A DNA stretch of 49,489 nucleotides from Balneolia bacterium. Lineage in GTDB: Bacteria > Bacteroidota > Rhodothermia > Balneolales > Cyclonatronaceae. How positions within the stretch are numbered: position 1 is the stretch's first letter; each line of letters opens with the position of its first letter. The notes beneath the pieces were generated by a model. It was given only the letters and a program-made list of their open reading frames with translations, ran no database searches and was not told the DNA's origin. The translations under genes and the position numbers were made by a program. This document shows positions 2,014 through 34,227 of the stretch, in pieces. Location of the stretch: the NCBI GenBank assembly GCA_022565795.1, contig JAIUMA010000019.1, positions 1 through 49,489 on the forward strand. The letters are read 5' to 3'.

Positions 2014-3273
2014 TCAGTTTCCCAAGTGTAGAATTTCGTTTGGGATGGGCAGGTGGTAGAGCATTGCATCGGAGTCGCTAACCAGGAACAGCAGGTTGTT
2101 TTCCCTGTCGCCGGCTATGCCTTCGGTATCGTTCAGCCCGTGGTGAAAGGCTGCCAGGGTTTCGCCTTCCGTGCTCAGGATAAAGATCGCTCTGGATTCG
2201 TCGCTTACCAGCCAGATCACATCATCCTGCGCATCATACCACAAACCCGCCATGCTGATGCCGGCTCCTCCCGTCAGGGCTCCGAAGTTCATTTCCTGCA
2301 GTCGGAGCACATCACCCTGCGGACTGATTTCCAGAAATAGTCTCGGGTTTCTCTTGTTCACCGCATAAAAGTTGAACGTCTCCGGATGGATGGTCAATCC
2401 TTCGATACCGTTGTTGGGGTCACTGCCCGGAATGTCAAGCTCAATTCTCCCTAGCGTGTAGCCAAGCGTATCGATGTTCACCAGCGCGCGCTGCCGCTCT
2501 TCGGCGATCCAGAGGGAGAAATTGCCGGGATGCTGGGCTATGCCCTCGGTGTCTTCACCCTGATACCGGTCGAGCGTCTTTATGACTTCACCCGTTCGGC
2601 TCACTTTATAGACTGAGTCTCCGGGATTGTCGCCAACGATCCAAAGGTCCGGCCCGCCCGTTGCATCGGCAGAAATTCCGGACGGATCTCCGATATTGAG
2701 CTGGTATGATGCTTCGGCTTCCAGCGTGTCGAGGCTATTGGCCATGCCCGGACTAGGTGTAGTAAACGGCAGGATGAACTGCGTATTAAATCCGTTGAAA
2801 CGGTACAGTCCGGTAGAAATAACAGGGTGATTATAGTTTTCCGGTATATCAAAAAAGTCGATTTCTGTACCGTTGGGGTCGAGCATGGTTAGCCTTCCGC
2901 CATCCCCGGTGAGTTCAATTCCGGTATTGAAACTGTCTGAAAATTCAGGGCTGTCGGGTCTCATCCAAAGCAGGAGATAGCGGCCAGGCGACAGTGTAAG
3001 ACCCGCCGGAAAACGAAAGGTGGTTCCAGTTCCGCTGTAGGACAGCTCCCAGTCGCGAAGGGCGATGGTTTCGTCAGTCGGGTTGTAGAGCTCGATCCAC
3101 CCGTGCCTGGTTTCGGCGCCTTCAGGCCCGAAAAGCTGCTGGGCCGGCCCCATGATTTCATTAATAATAATCGATCCGGGATCAAACGACTCCGGCGGTT
3201 CGATGATGTTATCGGTGCAGGAAAGGCCTGTGGGTAGTAAAAAAAGCGAAAGAAGAATAAGGGTGATGCGCAT
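2014..3273 (-). CDS. Lamin-tail domain / SdiA-regulated-like beta-propeller lipoprotein
   Basis: A 419-residue exported protein. The N-terminus is a signal peptide ending in GLSC, a probable lipoprotein cysteine at about residue 19. Residues about 35-180 read as a lamin-tail (LTD) domain: IIINEIMG, GWIELYNPTDETIALRDWELS and GRYLLLW are its usual landmarks. The rest (about 190-410) resembles the SdiA-regulated beta-propeller family: a repeated pattern of GISA..LWIV.., DTEGIAQHP, NNGIEGLTIHPE and DTEGIAGD blades. Such proteins sit on the cell surface or in the periplasm; no catalytic residue is recognisable. The gene is monocistronic, convergent with the gene before it and divergent from hsp20. 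Domain calls are by motif only, and the pairing of the two domains in one lipoprotein is the notable point. Confidence 0.75.
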   Translation of the reverse strand: MRITLILLSLFLLPTGLSCTDNIIEPPESFDPGSIIINEIMGPAQQLFGPEGAETRHGWIELYNPTDETIALRDWELSYSGTGTTFRFPAGLTLSPGRYLLLWMRPDSPEFSDSFNTGIELTGDGGRLTMLDPNGTEIDFFDIPENYNHPVISTGLYRFNGFNTQFILPFTTPSPGMANSLDTLEAEASYQLNIGDPSGISADATGGPDLWIVGDNPGDSVYKVSRTGEVIKTLDRYQGEDTEGIAQHPGNFSLWIAEERQRALVNIDTLGYTLGRIELDIPGSDPNNGIEGLTIHPETFNFYAVNKRNPRLFLEISPQGDVLRLQEMNFGALTGGAGISMAGLWYDAQDDVIWLVSDESRAIFILSTEGETLAAFHHGLNDTEGIAGDRENNLLFLVSDSDAMLYHLPIPNEILHLGN

Positions 3274-3600
3274 CGAAGCTGAGTCGGAATTTTTTTGTTA
3301 GCTTGGCGCCTCAGAAGAAGCGCTGGAACAAGATACCAAATCGGATTAAATCCCACAGCCGGAATCGGGCCGGGATTTTGGCTGTGGCTGACGCCCTGTC
3401 ACATCATAGTGAAAGTTTTGCAGAACGGGGCTGACTCCTTTTCATACCGTCTGAAATTATGAATGTTCCGCGCTGTCACTCTGCCCATACCTCATACCAA
3501 ACTGGCACAAAAACAGACTTTTATGCCAATGGCACGTGGTTTGCCTTTATCTCTGTGAACGCAATCATACACTGTTAAACACCAAAAAAAGGAGTCAGTC
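3274..3600. other. Divergent intergenic region between lipoprotein and hsp20
   Basis: It holds no gene that I can support. It carries the sigma54-type promoter of hsp20 (3530-3544), an isolated half-match TGGCAC at 3503-3508 without a downstream TTGC, and a good Shine-Dalgarno GGAG at 3591-3594 ahead of the hsp20 ATG. Confidence 0.6.
3530..3544 (+). promoter_or_regulatory. Sigma54 (-24/-12) promoter of hsp20
   Basis: TGGCAC at 3530-3535, five bases (GTGGT), then TTGC at 3541-3544. This matches the sigma54 consensus TGGCACG-N4-TTGC at every fixed position, with the required 10-base gap between the GG and GC cores. The expected transcription start is near 3555, giving a leader of about 45 bases before the hsp20 ATG at 3601. 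I looked for the same motif on both strands in the rest of the window and found no other full match. A sigma54 activator gene lies in the same window (31402-32754), but there is no evidence that it acts here. Confidence 0.7.
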
Positions 3601-4041
3601 ATGACACTCGTAAGATTTAGAAACGACCGCAATCTCGACAACCCGGTACCAAAAACCTTTTCAGATATGCTCGACAGTTTTTTTGACAACGCCATCACAC
3701 ATAACCTTGAAATGCGCGATTTTCAGCCGCATGTCGATATTCTTGAGCACGATACCAGTTTTGAGCTGAAGGTTACCTTGCCAGGCCTCAAAAAAGAGGA
3801 AATTAACATCGAGCTTGAGGACAACATTTTGACCATCAGCGGTGAGCGGAAGCATGAGACCGAGGAGAAGAACAAGAAATATCATTTGGTAGAAAGCCGT
3901 TACGGCAAATTCACCCGCTCATTCACCCTTCCGCGTAATGTCAATCGTGAGGGCATCAAGGCCACCATGGAAGACGGAATCCTCAGCATCAGCGTGGAGA
4001 AGAGCGAGGAAGCGGTAAGCCGCAAAATCAATATTGGATAG
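3601..4041 (+). CDS. Small heat shock protein Hsp20 (alpha-crystallin domain)
   Basis: An ATP-independent holdase of 146 residues that binds unfolding proteins in the cytoplasm. The alpha-crystallin domain runs from about residue 42 (PHVDILEHDTSFELKVTLPG) to the end, with the family hallmark PGLKKEEINIELEDNILTISGE and the C-terminal ATMEDGILSISV block. The usual IxI anchor is represented by the final KINIG. The start is set by a GGAG seven bases upstream. The gene is a single unit between a sigma54-type promoter and a strong terminator hairpin, so it should be induced by whichever stress its activator senses. Confidence 0.95.
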   Translation: MTLVRFRNDRNLDNPVPKTFSDMLDSFFDNAITHNLEMRDFQPHVDILEHDTSFELKVTLPGLKKEEINIELEDNILTISGERKHETEEKNKKYHLVESRYGKFTRSFTLPRNVNREGIKATMEDGILSISVEKSEEAVSRKINIG

Positions 4042-4106
4042 AATACAAATCTCCTGAGACGAGATAATTAGTTGATAGAATAAGCACAAAACAAAGCAAT
4101 AAGCCA

Positions 4107-4140
4107 GAGAGGCCGTCCTGATTGGGCGGCCTCTTTTTTT
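4107..4140 (+). terminator. Rho-independent terminator of hsp20
   Basis: An 11-bp stem (4108-4118 with 4124-4134, one G-T pair) with a five-base loop TGATT, running into a T-run that ends at 4140. Confidence 0.9.
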
Positions 4141-30090: not shown

Positions 30091-30753
30091 CTAATTCCTT
30101 TTTTTGTTTTTGCCCTTGGAGGGCTTTTTGTCCTGCTGCTGAGCCGTGAGATATTCGGAAAGCTGCTCAATTTTTGCTTCACAGTCTTCGGCACGATGCG
30201 GCTCGCGCCGTTTGATTTGCTCATACGCCTTTATGGCCTGTTCGTACTGCTGCTGATCTTCGTAGATACGTGCCAGGGTCGGGGTTGCAATGCCATCACC
30301 CACTTTTAGTGGCAAATGCCTGACCTCATGCTCCGAAGCTTTTTTCAGCTTGATACGCTGCGCCTCAGGGCTTGAAAGCTTGGTGATGAGACTGTCGATG
30401 TTAATGAAGAAGCGGCTGTCGGAGCTACTGCCGTCGCGGCCGGTTGGCTTCATCTGGCGGGAATCATCCGGAAGCCAGGCCTCAAAGCGGGAAGGATGTT
30501 TAAAGTAATACGGTAAATAGTTAAAAAATGGTGAGCCCGGGGCGAAGGCTTTAGCCTTGGCAGCACAATATCGGGCTTCCTCATCCTTACCTTGCTGAAG
30601 GAAAAACCAACCCAGCAGAAAATAACCTACTGCATCATTGCCGCGCCTTTTTAAATGGCGCATGAGCATGCCTGTAGCTTTTTCCGGATCTTTTTCGAAG
30701 AGTTCCAGATGGCTTTTGAGCGAGTCGGGTAGTTGAAATGGAAAGGTATTCAT
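30091..30753 (-). CDS. TPR-repeat protein
   Basis: A 220-residue cytoplasmic protein of helical pairs. DAVGYFLLGWFFLQQGKDEEARYCAAKAKAFAPGS (about 38-73) and TLARIYEDQQQYEQAIKAYEQIKRREPH (about 160-187) are TPR units; the middle is a low-complexity linker, and the C-terminus is a lysine-rich tail (KKPSKGKNKKRN). It is the last gene of the miaB - activator - lptE block and sits 124 bases after lptE, an arrangement I recall from related genomes. Function is likely protein binding; the partner is unknown. Confidence 0.8.
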   Translation of the reverse strand: MNTFPFQLPDSLKSHLELFEKDPEKATGMLMRHLKRRGNDAVGYFLLGWFFLQQGKDEEARYCAAKAKAFAPGSPFFNYLPYYFKHPSRFEAWLPDDSRQMKPTGRDGSSSDSRFFINIDSLITKLSSPEAQRIKLKKASEHEVRHLPLKVGDGIATPTLARIYEDQQQYEQAIKAYEQIKRREPHRAEDCEAKIEQLSEYLTAQQQDKKPSKGKNKKRN

Positions 30754-30877
30754 CGGGCGCTAAAAATCGGTAAAATTGCACTGCCGTTCAACAGAATATA
30801 GCAGATAATTAGCACCTGCTTTTGTAAAACCCTCAGTAATTTGAACTTCCGTCCGAAATCTGTTTTTTTAGCGGCTT

Positions 30878-31396
30878 TTACCAGTCACCCAAAGCATCGT
30901 TGAACATGTTTCTGGCGATACTGAGCATGGCTTCAAGAGCTGCTTCCCGTTCACCGTCGATCGGGTCTTCATTGGGGTCAAACTCAAATACGCCGTTAAA
31001 ATTTCTGTCCCATTCCGGCTCATCTTCCGTACGGTATTTAAAGCTTGCCCGTACGGTAACTTCAACACGGTTGAGGTCGGTGCGAGTCTCGCCGGCCACG
31101 CTGAACGGTCTGTTGCGGTAGTTTACGATGCTTCCGTCGAGCACAATGTCGGCTTCGTCCGGGTCGGAGGATAGCCTCAAGCGGCTTTGATTTACAAATC
31201 GATCAACCAGCGCCTCATTCAGATCTTCGGAGAGAAAGCTTAAGCCGGAGTTCGAGTTGTCGGGAAAGAAGGGGATGTGAACCGTTCGAACATCAGACGG
31301 AATTGAGACGCCCGTAAAGCTGTAGGAAAAACAGGAGGTGAGCATCAGCGATGCAACCATTACGGTAAGAAGTCGGCCCATTGAAAAGGTATTCAT
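30878..31396 (-). CDS. lptE: LptE-family lipopolysaccharide assembly lipoprotein
   Basis: A 172-residue outer-membrane lipoprotein that should plug the LptD barrel in LPS export. The lipobox is MLTSC (cysteine at about residue 22), followed by the family start CFSYSFTGVSIPSDVRTVHIPFFPDNS, the helix LSEDLNEALVDRFVNQSRL and the strand VEVTVRASFKYR. This N-terminal pattern is the Bacteroidota LptE type. It starts five bases after the stop of the sigma54 activator, so the two are almost certainly co-transcribed. Confidence 0.87.
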   Translation of the reverse strand: MNTFSMGRLLTVMVASLMLTSCFSYSFTGVSIPSDVRTVHIPFFPDNSNSGLSFLSEDLNEALVDRFVNQSRLRLSSDPDEADIVLDGSIVNYRNRPFSVAGETRTDLNRVEVTVRASFKYRTEDEPEWDRNFNGVFEFDPNEDPIDGEREAALEAMLSIARNMFNDALGDW

Positions 31397-31401
31397 ACTT
31401 G

Positions 31402-32754
31402 TTAACTGATGAGTCCGTACTGATCCAGCTTGCGGTAGAGCGTCCTTTCGCTCATGCCGAGCGTTTCAGCAGCTTTGCGTCTGTTGCCTTCAAAACGCTC
31501 AAGCGCCAGTTTTATGAGGAACTTCTCGGCGTCTTCAACGGATGGGATGCTTTCCATCTTCCGGAAATACTCCATTAAATCCTGCGGCTCGTCTATGTCC
31601 TCGTGGTGAGCATCGTAGCTGTCACCAAAATTCTTTTTGTTGTATCCAAGCGGGATTTCGTCACCACCTGTGTGCACGTAATCATTAACCGGATCGGACT
31701 GCTCACGGGGCTGTCGCGATGCATGGCCGGATGCTGATGTCAGTAGTGGCAGCGCACGAGACGGCTTTCCGTCTTTGTCCATATTGTTGTATATGAATGA
31801 ACCGAGCATTTTCTTCATGTCCGATATCTCGCTGCGAAGGTCAATCAAAGCGCGGTACAACAGCTCACGCTCCTGCTCACCAAAACCATTGCTGTATCGT
31901 TCGGACTCATCTTTATAAGCCGATGATTTAATTGGCATGGGCAGGTTGTCGGCCGAGCCGGTATGCTGCCTGCCTTTGAGATATTTCTGAAGCTTCTCTG
32001 CGGTTACAAACTGAGAGCGCTCGAGCACCACAAGCTGCTCGGCCACGCTTCTGAGCTCACGGATATTCCCCGGCCAGCGGTAGGAAATCAAAAGCTCGCG
32101 GGCATCATCCGAAAACCCCTGAAACACGGAGTCGTATTTTCGGGCAAACTCTTCAACGAAGCTTCGGAAAATGAGCGGAGTGTCTTCTTTGCGCTCGCGA
32201 AGGGGCGGCAGATGTACCGTAACGGTATCGAGGCGGTAATAGAGATCTTCCCGGAAGTGGCCTTTTTCAACATCATCCCACAAATCCCGGTTGGTGGCAG
32301 TGATGATGCGTACGTCGGTTTTGCGAACCTGTGAGGAGCCTACGCGGTAGTATTCGCCGTTTTCCAAAATCCGGAGCAGCTTAACCTGCACGTTTTTGGG
32401 TGTGTCGCCAATTTCATCGAGGAAGATGGTTCCTCCGTTGGCCATTTCAAAGTAGCCCTGGCGCGTTTGATCTGCTCCGGTGAAGGAACCTTTTTCATGG
32501 CCAAAAAGCTCACTTTCGATGATGCCCTCCGGAATCGCCCCGCAGTTCACAATCACCAGTTTTTCATCTTTGCGTTCGCTCAGACCGTGAATGACGCGTG
32601 CCATAACGTCTTTTCCAACGCCACTCTCGCCGCGCAGCAGAATATTGATTTTAGTGGGAGCAACCAGCGCCGCTTTTTCCAGCACGCGGGTAAGGGCATC
32701 TGAACTACCTATAAGCCCGAACTTTTCCTGCACCTTTTGTATGTCTGCTGTCAT
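31402..32754 (-). CDS. Sigma54-dependent transcriptional activator without a sensor domain
   Basis: A 450-residue enhancer-binding protein. It begins almost directly with the AAA+ domain: Walker A GESGVGKD (about 39-46), ESELFGHEKGSFTGA, where the sigma54-contact loop is GSFTGA instead of GAFTGA, Walker B TIFLDEIGD, VRIITATNRDL, FREDLYYRLDTVTVHLPPLRER and YRWPGNIRELR. A long middle segment rich in Ser, Asp and His follows, then a Fis-type HTH (FEGNRRKAAETLGMSERTLYRKL) at the C-terminus. There is no receiver, PAS or GAF domain in front, so its activity must be set another way. It sits between miaB and lptE. Confidence 0.92.
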   Translation of the reverse strand: MTADIQKVQEKFGLIGSSDALTRVLEKAALVAPTKINILLRGESGVGKDVMARVIHGLSERKDEKLVIVNCGAIPEGIIESELFGHEKGSFTGADQTRQGYFEMANGGTIFLDEIGDTPKNVQVKLLRILENGEYYRVGSSQVRKTDVRIITATNRDLWDDVEKGHFREDLYYRLDTVTVHLPPLRERKEDTPLIFRSFVEEFARKYDSVFQGFSDDARELLISYRWPGNIRELRSVAEQLVVLERSQFVTAEKLQKYLKGRQHTGSADNLPMPIKSSAYKDESERYSNGFGEQERELLYRALIDLRSEISDMKKMLGSFIYNNMDKDGKPSRALPLLTSASGHASRQPREQSDPVNDYVHTGGDEIPLGYNKKNFGDSYDAHHEDIDEPQDLMEYFRKMESIPSVEDAEKFLIKLALERFEGNRRKAAETLGMSERTLYRKLDQYGLIS

Positions 32755-32814
32755 TATCGGATGAAGTTTATTGGTAATCGAATAGAGAAACCAGTACTGA
32801 TGCCGGAGCCGGTA

Positions 32815-34227
32815 TCAGGCGCTATGCATCACCGGAACTGTGCTGCCGTACCGCTGATTGAATTCAGTAATCGAAGTCTTATGCAGGCCACGGCCCATTA
32901 AAGTGGCAGATGTGGAGCCCGTGATTTCAACGGCAACATAATCTCCAATTTCGAAATCGGCGCGGTCAAATACCACCATTTTGTTAGTGTCTGTGCGGCC
33001 GTTAATCTGGTCCTCGTTTCTCTTGCTTGTTCTCTCAACAAGAACAAGATGGGTTCTTCCGGTTTCGAGCTGATTCGATTTTTCCTGATTACCCATCTGC
33101 AGGTCGATGATTTCACTGAGACGGCGCTTTTTTACCTCCTCAGGTACATCATCTTCATACTTTCTGTGAGCGAGAGTTCGCTCGCGCTCGGAATAGGCAA
33201 ACATATAGGCAAGATCATAATTTACCGTGCGAATAAGCGAGAGCGTATCTTCATGCTGCTCTTCGGTCTCGCCACAGAAACCTGTAATTAGGTCGGTTGA
33301 TAACGTCACTTCCGGAATGATTTCGCGCATTCTTTCGGTGAGTGCAAGATACTCCTCGCGGGTGTACGGGCGTCTCATGCGCTTGAGAACCTCTGTGCTG
33401 CCAGACTGAGCCGGGATATGAATATAGTTGCACAAGTTCGGACGCTCGGCAATCATGTGAAGCAACGGCTCCGGAAAATCTTTCGGGTGAGGTGAAGAAA
33501 AACGGAAGCGAATTTCGGGGTGACGGCTGCTGGCTTCATCCATTAAGCGGGTGAAGTCGGCGTCTTCGTACAGGTAGGAGTTTACATTCTGGCCCAGAAG
33601 GGTTACTTCCTTGTAGCCATTCTCGCTAAGCTGCTCAATCTCCTGTAAGATGCTTGTCATCGGGCGGCTGCGCTCACGACCTCTTGTAAACGGCACCACG
33701 CAAAACGAGCACATATTGTCGCAACCTCTCATGATGGATACAAACGCGGTGACACCATTACCTGTAGTTCGTACAGGGGCAATATCGGCGTAGGTTTCTT
33801 CCAGAGAAAGGATAACGTTCACGGCTTTTCTGCCATCATCGACCTGCGAGAGAAGATTCGGGATATCGCGGTAGGCGTCCGGGCCCACAACGAGATCAAC
33901 CAGCTTATGTTCGTCCAAAAACTTTTCGCGAATTCGCTCGGCCATACAGCCAAGAACGCCTACGATTTTATCCTGCTTCTTTTTCGTACGAAGCGAGCGG
34001 AAATATTTCAACCGATCCCAAACCTTGCGCTCTGCATTGTCGCGAATCGAACAGGTGTTCACAAAAATAACGTCGGCCTGTTCGGGGCTTGGCGCTGCCG
34101 TATGACCCTGCTCCAGCATAATCGAATTCACGATTTCGGAGTCAGCAAAGTTCATCTGGCAGCCGTAGGTTTCAATAAAGTAGGTTTTCGAATCCAAGGT
34201 ATTCTGTTTTGATGTGTTTTTGTTCAA
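32815..34227 (-). CDS. miaB: tRNA-2-methylthio-N6-dimethylallyladenosine synthase
   Basis: A radical-SAM methylthiotransferase that adds a methylthio group to i6A37 of tRNAs reading UNN codons. The 470-residue protein has the N-terminal cluster cysteines (C23 in ETYGCQMN, C59 in NTCSIRD, C94 in GCMAER), the radical-SAM CxxxCxxC at C169, C173 and C176 (GCDNMCSFC) and a C-terminal TRAM domain ([37 protein letters not shown]). The only suitable start is a TTG at 34227; no ATG lies before the conserved ETYGCQMN. It heads the minus-strand block with the activator 60 bases behind. Confidence 0.94.

Follow-up and report, generated by a model that had tools for sequence, protein, structure and literature searches.

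A conserved sigma54-type promoter element upstream of hsp20 in Balneolales and a proposed sigma54-dependent chaperone circuit

The hsp20 locus and its promoter element

The window is a stretch of 49,489 nucleotides from a Balneolia bacterium (contig JAIUMA010000019.1 of assembly GCA_022565795.1), whose 3.59-Mb genome is designated G000 below. The hsp20 gene in this window encodes a small protein that scored 99.5 bits against the HSP20 model PF00011 (cut-off 20.8; E = 1.3e-28), and was therefore assigned to the Hsp20/alpha-crystallin family. Upstream of its ribosome-binding site lies the element TGGCACGTGGTTTGC, preceded by putative activator sites (Table 1). Sigma54 promoters have the consensus TGGCACG-N4-TTGC, in which ten bases lie between the GG and the GC core. 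The element contained its GG core at 3531–3532 and its GC core at 3543–3544, with this same spacing, and 56 bases separated it from the ATG of hsp20 at 3601. A preliminary description of this DNA had reported a full sigma54 consensus match with correct spacing, the only one in 49 kb. The sequence bore out both points, and the exact match occurred once in the window and once in the whole genome. The pentamer GTGAA is found at 3555–3559, roughly where transcription should begin. Among the promoters of orthologous hsp20, 33 of 55 had it near the expected start (1.6 in shuffles), as did 7 of 29 hsp20-dnaK promoters (0.4 in shuffles); it may belong to a leader or to the initially transcribed sequence. 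On the minus strand at 2014–3273, we observed a gene for a protein with a signal-like N-terminus and a lamin-tail domain fused to an SdiA-regulated/phytase-like domain.

Table 1. Features of the hsp20 locus, the candidate activator locus and the groES locus of the source genome.
Feature	Position	Strand	Basis or remark
Putative activator site TGACGCCCTGTCA, matching the dyad TGNC-N5-GNCA	3389..3401	+	starts 141 bp before the -24/-12 box; dyad enriched in relatives
Further putative activator site TGTCACTCTGCCC, imperfect at its last base	3474..3486	+	sequence
Isolated TGGCA, putative half-site	3503..3507	+	sequence
Sigma54 -24/-12 promoter element TGGCACGTGGTTTGC	3530..3544	+	exact consensus match; conserved in orthologs
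Predicted transcription start	3555..3556	+	from general sigma54 geometry, ~12 nt past the GC core
Ribosome-binding site AGGAG	3590..3594	+	sequence
hsp20, 146-aa small heat shock protein	3601..4041 (stop included)	+	Pfam HSP20, PF00011
Intrinsic-terminator-like hairpin 3' of hsp20	4106..4136	+	1 found vs 1.1 expected in shuffles; weak alone
lptE-like gene, downstream neighbor of the bEBP gene	30878..31396	-	
Candidate activator bEBP, 450 aa, no N-terminal sensor domain, GSFTGA, Fis-type HTH	31402..32754	-	domain search
miaB, upstream neighbor of the bEBP gene	32815..34227	-	
groES of the source genome	contig C20 (L323; groES loci L303–L327)		sigma54-type box

The motif was also counted against chance. 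With up to two mismatches to the consensus, the window contained 13 matches against 15.9 in shuffles, and GG-N10-GC occurred 435 times against 428. In the genome, the consensus with up to one mismatch was matched 36 times and its reversed pattern 76 times. Raw counts of TGGYAY-N5-TTGY were 71 against 63 for the reversed pattern in G000, and 54 against 66 in its relative G005. Since the raw string occurred at chance frequency, the string alone proves little, and it is conservation that places the box above chance.

Conservation of the box at hsp20 and other chaperone genes

The comparison set consisted of 59 genomes, including the source genome, of the Balneolales (placed under Balneolota in the NCBI taxonomy). 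The 260 bp preceding each gene start were scanned for the strict box TGGYAY-N5-TTG. The box was found in 57 of the 59 sequences classed as orthologous hsp20 (mean 0.50 and maximum 2 in dinucleotide shuffles; 0 on the minus strand), at a median position of -70. Counted by genome, orthologous hsp20 was read in 54 genomes and the box was present in 54/54. The gene was left unread in G002, where a contig end cuts the copy, and in G008, G022, G040, and G049; record L103, which is perhaps the same genome as G002, had the box. Whether close relatives keep the GG/GC cores had been proposed as a check of the sigma54 reading. The reading withstood this check: the cores were kept overall, but the GC was often GT (TTG was followed by C at 56% and by T at 39% of the 57 sites).

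Because some positions of the strict pattern are invariant by construction, a nine-member family alignment was built without the motif, and TGG-A and TTG were among its few invariant columns. Two sequences, L210 and L213, were classed with orthologous hsp20 by score although dnaK comes next; without them, the counts were 55/57 sequences and 54 genomes. The box was missing at L214, which precedes dnaK, and at L215, a third paralog. Both L180 copies had no strict box, and their genome, G047, had the box at L056. L232 had just 9 bp of upstream sequence.

A second hsp20 class, in which hsp20 is followed by dnaK, had the strict box in 27 of 29 sequences (mean 0.21 and maximum 2 in shuffles; 0 on the minus strand). 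The hsp20-dnaK operon was read in 30 genomes, and the box preceded it in all but G022 (29/30). The second hsp20 of the source genome (contig C25) belongs to this type, with dnaK next and the box TGGCACTATGTTTGC starting 41 bp before the start. Two same-genus copies beginning with GTG (L200 and L204) carried the box and were omitted from the shuffle tally for want of an ATG start. Because raw matches across a genome are mostly noise, the analysis was restricted to boxes that lie outside coding sequence and are followed by a gene. In G000, this left nine out of 47 distinct box-like sites, and four of the nine preceded hsp20, hsp20-dnaK, grpE (PF01025), and htpG (PF00183). The remaining five preceded a flgB-like gene, three exopolysaccharide-looking genes, and one other gene, the flagellar and exopolysaccharide labels coming from sequence reading. 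Similarly, 53 sites in G005 yielded six such genes, including hsp20, an htpG-like gene, and an hslV-like gene (labels again from sequence reading), and G005 also had the box at hsp20-dnaK. The chaperone yield among the kept boxes is high, yet many sigma54-like strings are noise. On contig C1 of G000, at about 100–129 kb (L003, L004, L123, and L034), three sigma54-like boxes precede exopolysaccharide-looking genes; a short bEBP of a different type is encoded nearby, and the boxes are perhaps part of a separate sigma54 circuit.

The groES gene was found in 25 of the 30 genomes searched. Among the 25 upstream regions, 12 had a sigma54-type box, 11 had CIRCE-type repeats, G011 had both, and G022 had neither clearly. 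Eight of the 12 boxes were strict; the other four were non-canonical and all belonged to the source genus, source genome included, where the box reads TTGGCACGGTTTTTTC and is off-consensus at -12, ending in TTTC and not TTGC. HrcA was found in 0/12 box-type genomes and in 11/11 CIRCE-type genomes, in two pieces in G025 (Fisher p = 7e-7, with kinship ignored); it was present in G011 and absent in G022. The CIRCE-type groES genes belonged to genomes of related Balneolales families that also encode HrcA. A genome search of G000 did not find HrcA, nor was CIRCE found there with up to three mismatches, which gave no sign of an HrcA/CIRCE regulon. Family f4, some members of family f1, and perhaps G022 show the swap, which therefore probably happened more than once. 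Control of groES has thus apparently passed between the HrcA repressor and sigma54 repeatedly within one order, and this alternation suggests that the two have equivalent roles.

Outside the order, we examined 56 of 76 non-Balneolales Bacteroidota genomes with 75 upstream regions, those shorter than 100 bp being dropped. The strict box preceded an hsp20 in 26 of the 56 genomes (1 on the minus strand), a number that is likely a lower bound because a portion of the 75 regions comes from within hsp20 clusters. It was present in 16/22 families and in 8 of 10 same-class genomes outside Balneolales, and family f17 was nearly devoid of it (1/11). The preliminary description had regarded sigma54 control as exceptional for an hsp20 gene; the control itself gained support, but it is the rule in this order and common in the phylum. 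Box-like sites were also seen, with no control, before hsp20 genes of Verrucomicrobiota type (L083, L094, L098, and L102, about 155 bp upstream of the ATG taken as start), Lentisphaeria (L113), Nitrospira (L096), and Krumholzibacteriota (L078); the -12 part deviated in L096 and L078.

The shared upstream dyad and the candidate activator

Half-sites and dyads were counted in the 150 bp before the box and compared with mononucleotide shuffles. At least one TGWCA was present in all 56 first-class (orthologous hsp20) promoters (14.4 in shuffles) and in 21 of 26 second-class promoters (6.7). The dyad TGNC-N5-GNCA was found in 34/56 first-class (1.2) and 22/26 second-class promoters (0.5), and it was rare elsewhere in the same loci (0.3 and 0.7, respectively). 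In the source genome, the dyad of hsp20-dnaK is TGTCAATACGGCA, which starts 36 bp before the box, and the dyad at 3389–3401 would serve as the putative upstream enhancer of the hsp20 promoter. The TGTCA of TGTCACTCTGCCC fell in a half-site column conserved across the nine-member alignment. An EM search for palindromes drifted to low-information solutions, among which only those 13 and 15 wide showed the dyad that was later counted. TGWCA was present in 12/12 sigma54-type groES regions against 4/11 CIRCE-type regions. The non-coding boxes with a strict dyad all preceded hsp20 genes (2/9 in G000 and 1/6 in G005). The strict dyad was absent at grpE and htpG of G000 and at htpG and hslV of G005, an argument against all of these genes sharing one activator. 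The earlier proposal that a dedicated activator governs a stress circuit gains support from the boxes of the same type at other chaperone genes and from the dyad shared by hsp20 and hsp20-dnaK.

The source genome encodes RpoN (PF04552, E = 1e-55) and four strong bEBPs, one of them inside the window; together with the conserved box, this supports the predicted sigma54 control. RpoN was found in 55 of the 59 genomes (source included) and in 40/40 high-quality genomes. It was not found in G008, G025, G047, and G049, which are drafts of 60–87% completeness. The bEBP in the window had the features of a sigma54 activator: a PF00158 AAA+ domain from residue 14 (228.2 bits) with a GAFTGA-type loop (GSFTGA), an AAA+ lid, and an HTH (HTH_8, 54.5 bits at 406–446), which is preceded by a linker of about 130 residues with the conserved stretch YRAL...ISD.K.M. 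Against the PspF model TIGR02974, it scored 289.3 bits, below the cut-off of 443.55, and was not assigned to PspF.

A match to this bEBP with at least 58% identity over most of the protein was found in 50 of the 59 genomes, source included. The nine genomes without a match were drafts of 51–94% completeness (G007, G020, G023, G026, G036, G040 with a fragment, G045, G049, and G053). The neighborhood was read at 41 loci, of which six were repeats and one belonged to a different bEBP type; the rest represented 34 genomes carrying the type found in the window. Counted once per genome, the bEBP gene was followed by lptE in 33/34 and preceded by miaB, within the available stretch, in 18/34; no miaB was seen beside the bEBP gene in family f4. 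In the window, the minus-strand region 30091–34227 is a cluster of miaB, the sensor-less bEBP gene, the lptE-like gene, and TPR genes. The bEBPs of relatives fell into several types, although the typed loci were mostly the best-scoring ones and hence biased.

In the drafts G028, G030, and G038 (80–93% completeness), the only bEBP found was of the miaB-linked type, which in G030 was assigned by 58% identity only, and the hsp20 boxes were present. We rather favor this miaB-linked bEBP as the activator of the hsp20 promoter, its link to the dyad being one of co-occurrence alone. The principal alternative is that promoter and regulon are real and that the activator is another bEBP, for example a response regulator with a receiver domain encoded on contig C136, which would place the genes under a two-component system. 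Of the four strong bEBPs of the source genome, that on C136 has a receiver domain, and C136-like proteins occurred in many genomes of the source family and f4, mostly at best-scoring loci and thus in a biased sample. The sole bEBP found in G023, G045, and G049 was of another type, and that of G020 was untyped; the hsp20 box was present in G020, G023, and G045 (all four are drafts, 60–88% completeness). Against this stand G028, G030, and G038, with the caveats on completeness and typing given above, and we regard a different activator as a less likely choice that nevertheless deserves weight.

Proposed circuit, alternatives, and relation to known systems

From the sequence comparisons, we consider it very likely that the element before hsp20 is a working sigma54 promoter, and its membership in a chaperone regulon likely. 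The full reading, that a genuine sigma54 promoter of hsp20 is one output of a Balneolales-wide sigma54 chaperone regulon with bEBP activation, is likely. Boxes are conserved, the dyad is shared, RpoN and bEBPs are present, and HrcA and a detectable CIRCE are missing from the source genome; from these observations, we infer that the box drives transcription, which bEBP activates it, and that stress is the signal. RNA polymerase with RpoN would wait on the -24/-12 element, and an activator ATPase (bEBP) would bind the upstream arrays of TGNCA half-sites (dyad TGNC-N5-GNCA), loop over, and open the promoter upon protein misfolding. The targets in the source genome would be hsp20 and the hsp20-dnaK operon, and probably grpE, htpG, and groESL. 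The activator would most likely be the sensor-less bEBP of the miaB-bEBP-lptE locus. PspF is switched by PspA, and the missing receiver and sensor domains of the window bEBP would likewise imply a partner acting in trans. Protein-folding stress in Balneolales is thus probably run by an activator-driven circuit and not by the textbook heat-shock regulators. To our knowledge, RpoH is absent from the group of the source organism.

The reading of the box as a chance match, with hsp20 driven by a housekeeping promoter (Bacteroidota -33/-7 type) or an ECF promoter, draws on the chance-level frequency of the string in the genome. It is set against a box that was kept in every genome read while the flanks changed and that recurs before hsp20-dnaK and some groES genes. 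We rejected chance on the conservation in 57/59 sequences and in the motif-free alignment, not on the string. A housekeeping promoter was also sought, and a sigma70-type scan, whose scope lies outside Bacteroidota promoters, found nothing on the plus strand upstream of hsp20. Altogether, this reading is highly improbable. Somewhat less remote, though still improbable, is a real sigma54 promoter that serves a non-stress program (envelope, starvation, or growth phase), with a housekeeping promoter giving heat induction. The candidate bEBP gene does adjoin lptE, and other non-coding sigma54-like boxes of G000 precede exopolysaccharide-looking and flagellar-looking genes; however, those kept boxes of G000 and G005 that have the strict dyad all precede hsp20 genes, and the exchange of HrcA/CIRCE for the box at groES suggests equivalent roles.

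A wider version of the proposed chaperone regulon is tentative when its parts are taken jointly: sigma54 might be the principal heat-shock sigma factor of Balneolales, its use at hsp20 might be ancestral in Bacteroidota, the orphan miaB-bEBP-lptE locus might act as a misfolding sensor, and the same circuit might explain rpoN in endosymbionts. The misfolding sensed would perhaps be that of outer-membrane assembly factors, and the orphan bEBP would switch on hsp20, hsp20-dnaK, grpE, and htpG, and groESL where HrcA was lost. We know of no settled answer to how chaperones are regulated in HrcA-less bacteria of the Bacteroidota type. In contrast to sigma32 and repressor systems, a sigma54 circuit would tie the heat-shock response strictly to an activator driven by ATP. 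The circuit proposed here names a testable activator gene. If true, it would also give a chaperone-based reason for rpoN in the tiny genomes of Bacteroidota endosymbionts. The retention of RpoN in insect endosymbionts was called unusual and tentatively linked to nitrogen in the available part of one report (PMC3971599), and a chaperone reason may already be contained in Sabree et al. 2009 on Blattabacterium.

Sigma54 control of chaperones in Bacteroidota as such is already predicted. In the available text of their in-silico survey, Carrera-Reyna et al. 2025 (PMC12316311) predicted it for genes of GroEL, IbpA-type Hsp20, GroES, GrpE, DnaJ, and DnaK. The predictions were enriched in Planctomycetota and Bacteroidota, most being in Flavobacteriia, then Bacteroidia and Cytophagia, with others in Planctomycetia, and with HSP90 in Bacteroidia. 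The same text, citing Sabree et al. 2009, lists grpE of Bacteroides thetaiotaomicron and Flavobacterium psychrophilum and groES of B. thetaiotaomicron as sigma54-dependent, and states that EBP specificity was not available for all organisms surveyed. A word search of its main text returned no Balneol-, Rhodotherm-, HrcA, CIRCE, PspF, activator sequence, or miaB. As far as that text goes, the survey and our analysis agree in the sigma54 chaperone prediction, and Balneolales, HrcA/CIRCE, and the activator candidate are treated only here. Nothing else on this circuit was found in the open-access literature, subscription papers being mostly outside its coverage. The order-wide conservation, shared enhancer, candidate activator, and HrcA replacement appear to be new.

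Among individual systems, the small heat shock gene ibpB of E. coli resembles the present hsp20 in having been given a sigma54 promoter (Kuczynska-Wisnik 2001, as cited in PMC4316790). In the sections available, the latter report places ibpAB under sigma32, and ChIP at ibpB gave only a background sigma54 signal, from which the authors suggested misannotation (PMC4591121). The Balneolales box differs from this case in its order-wide conservation. The window bEBP resembles PspF, as generally understood, in combining AAA+ and HTH domains without an N-terminal sensor domain and in its proposed stress output; it differs in its sub-cut-off score, its long linker, and its miaB/lptE neighbors. The HrcA/CIRCE system is found at groES in related families of Balneolales, whereas the source genome has a sigma54-type box there instead.
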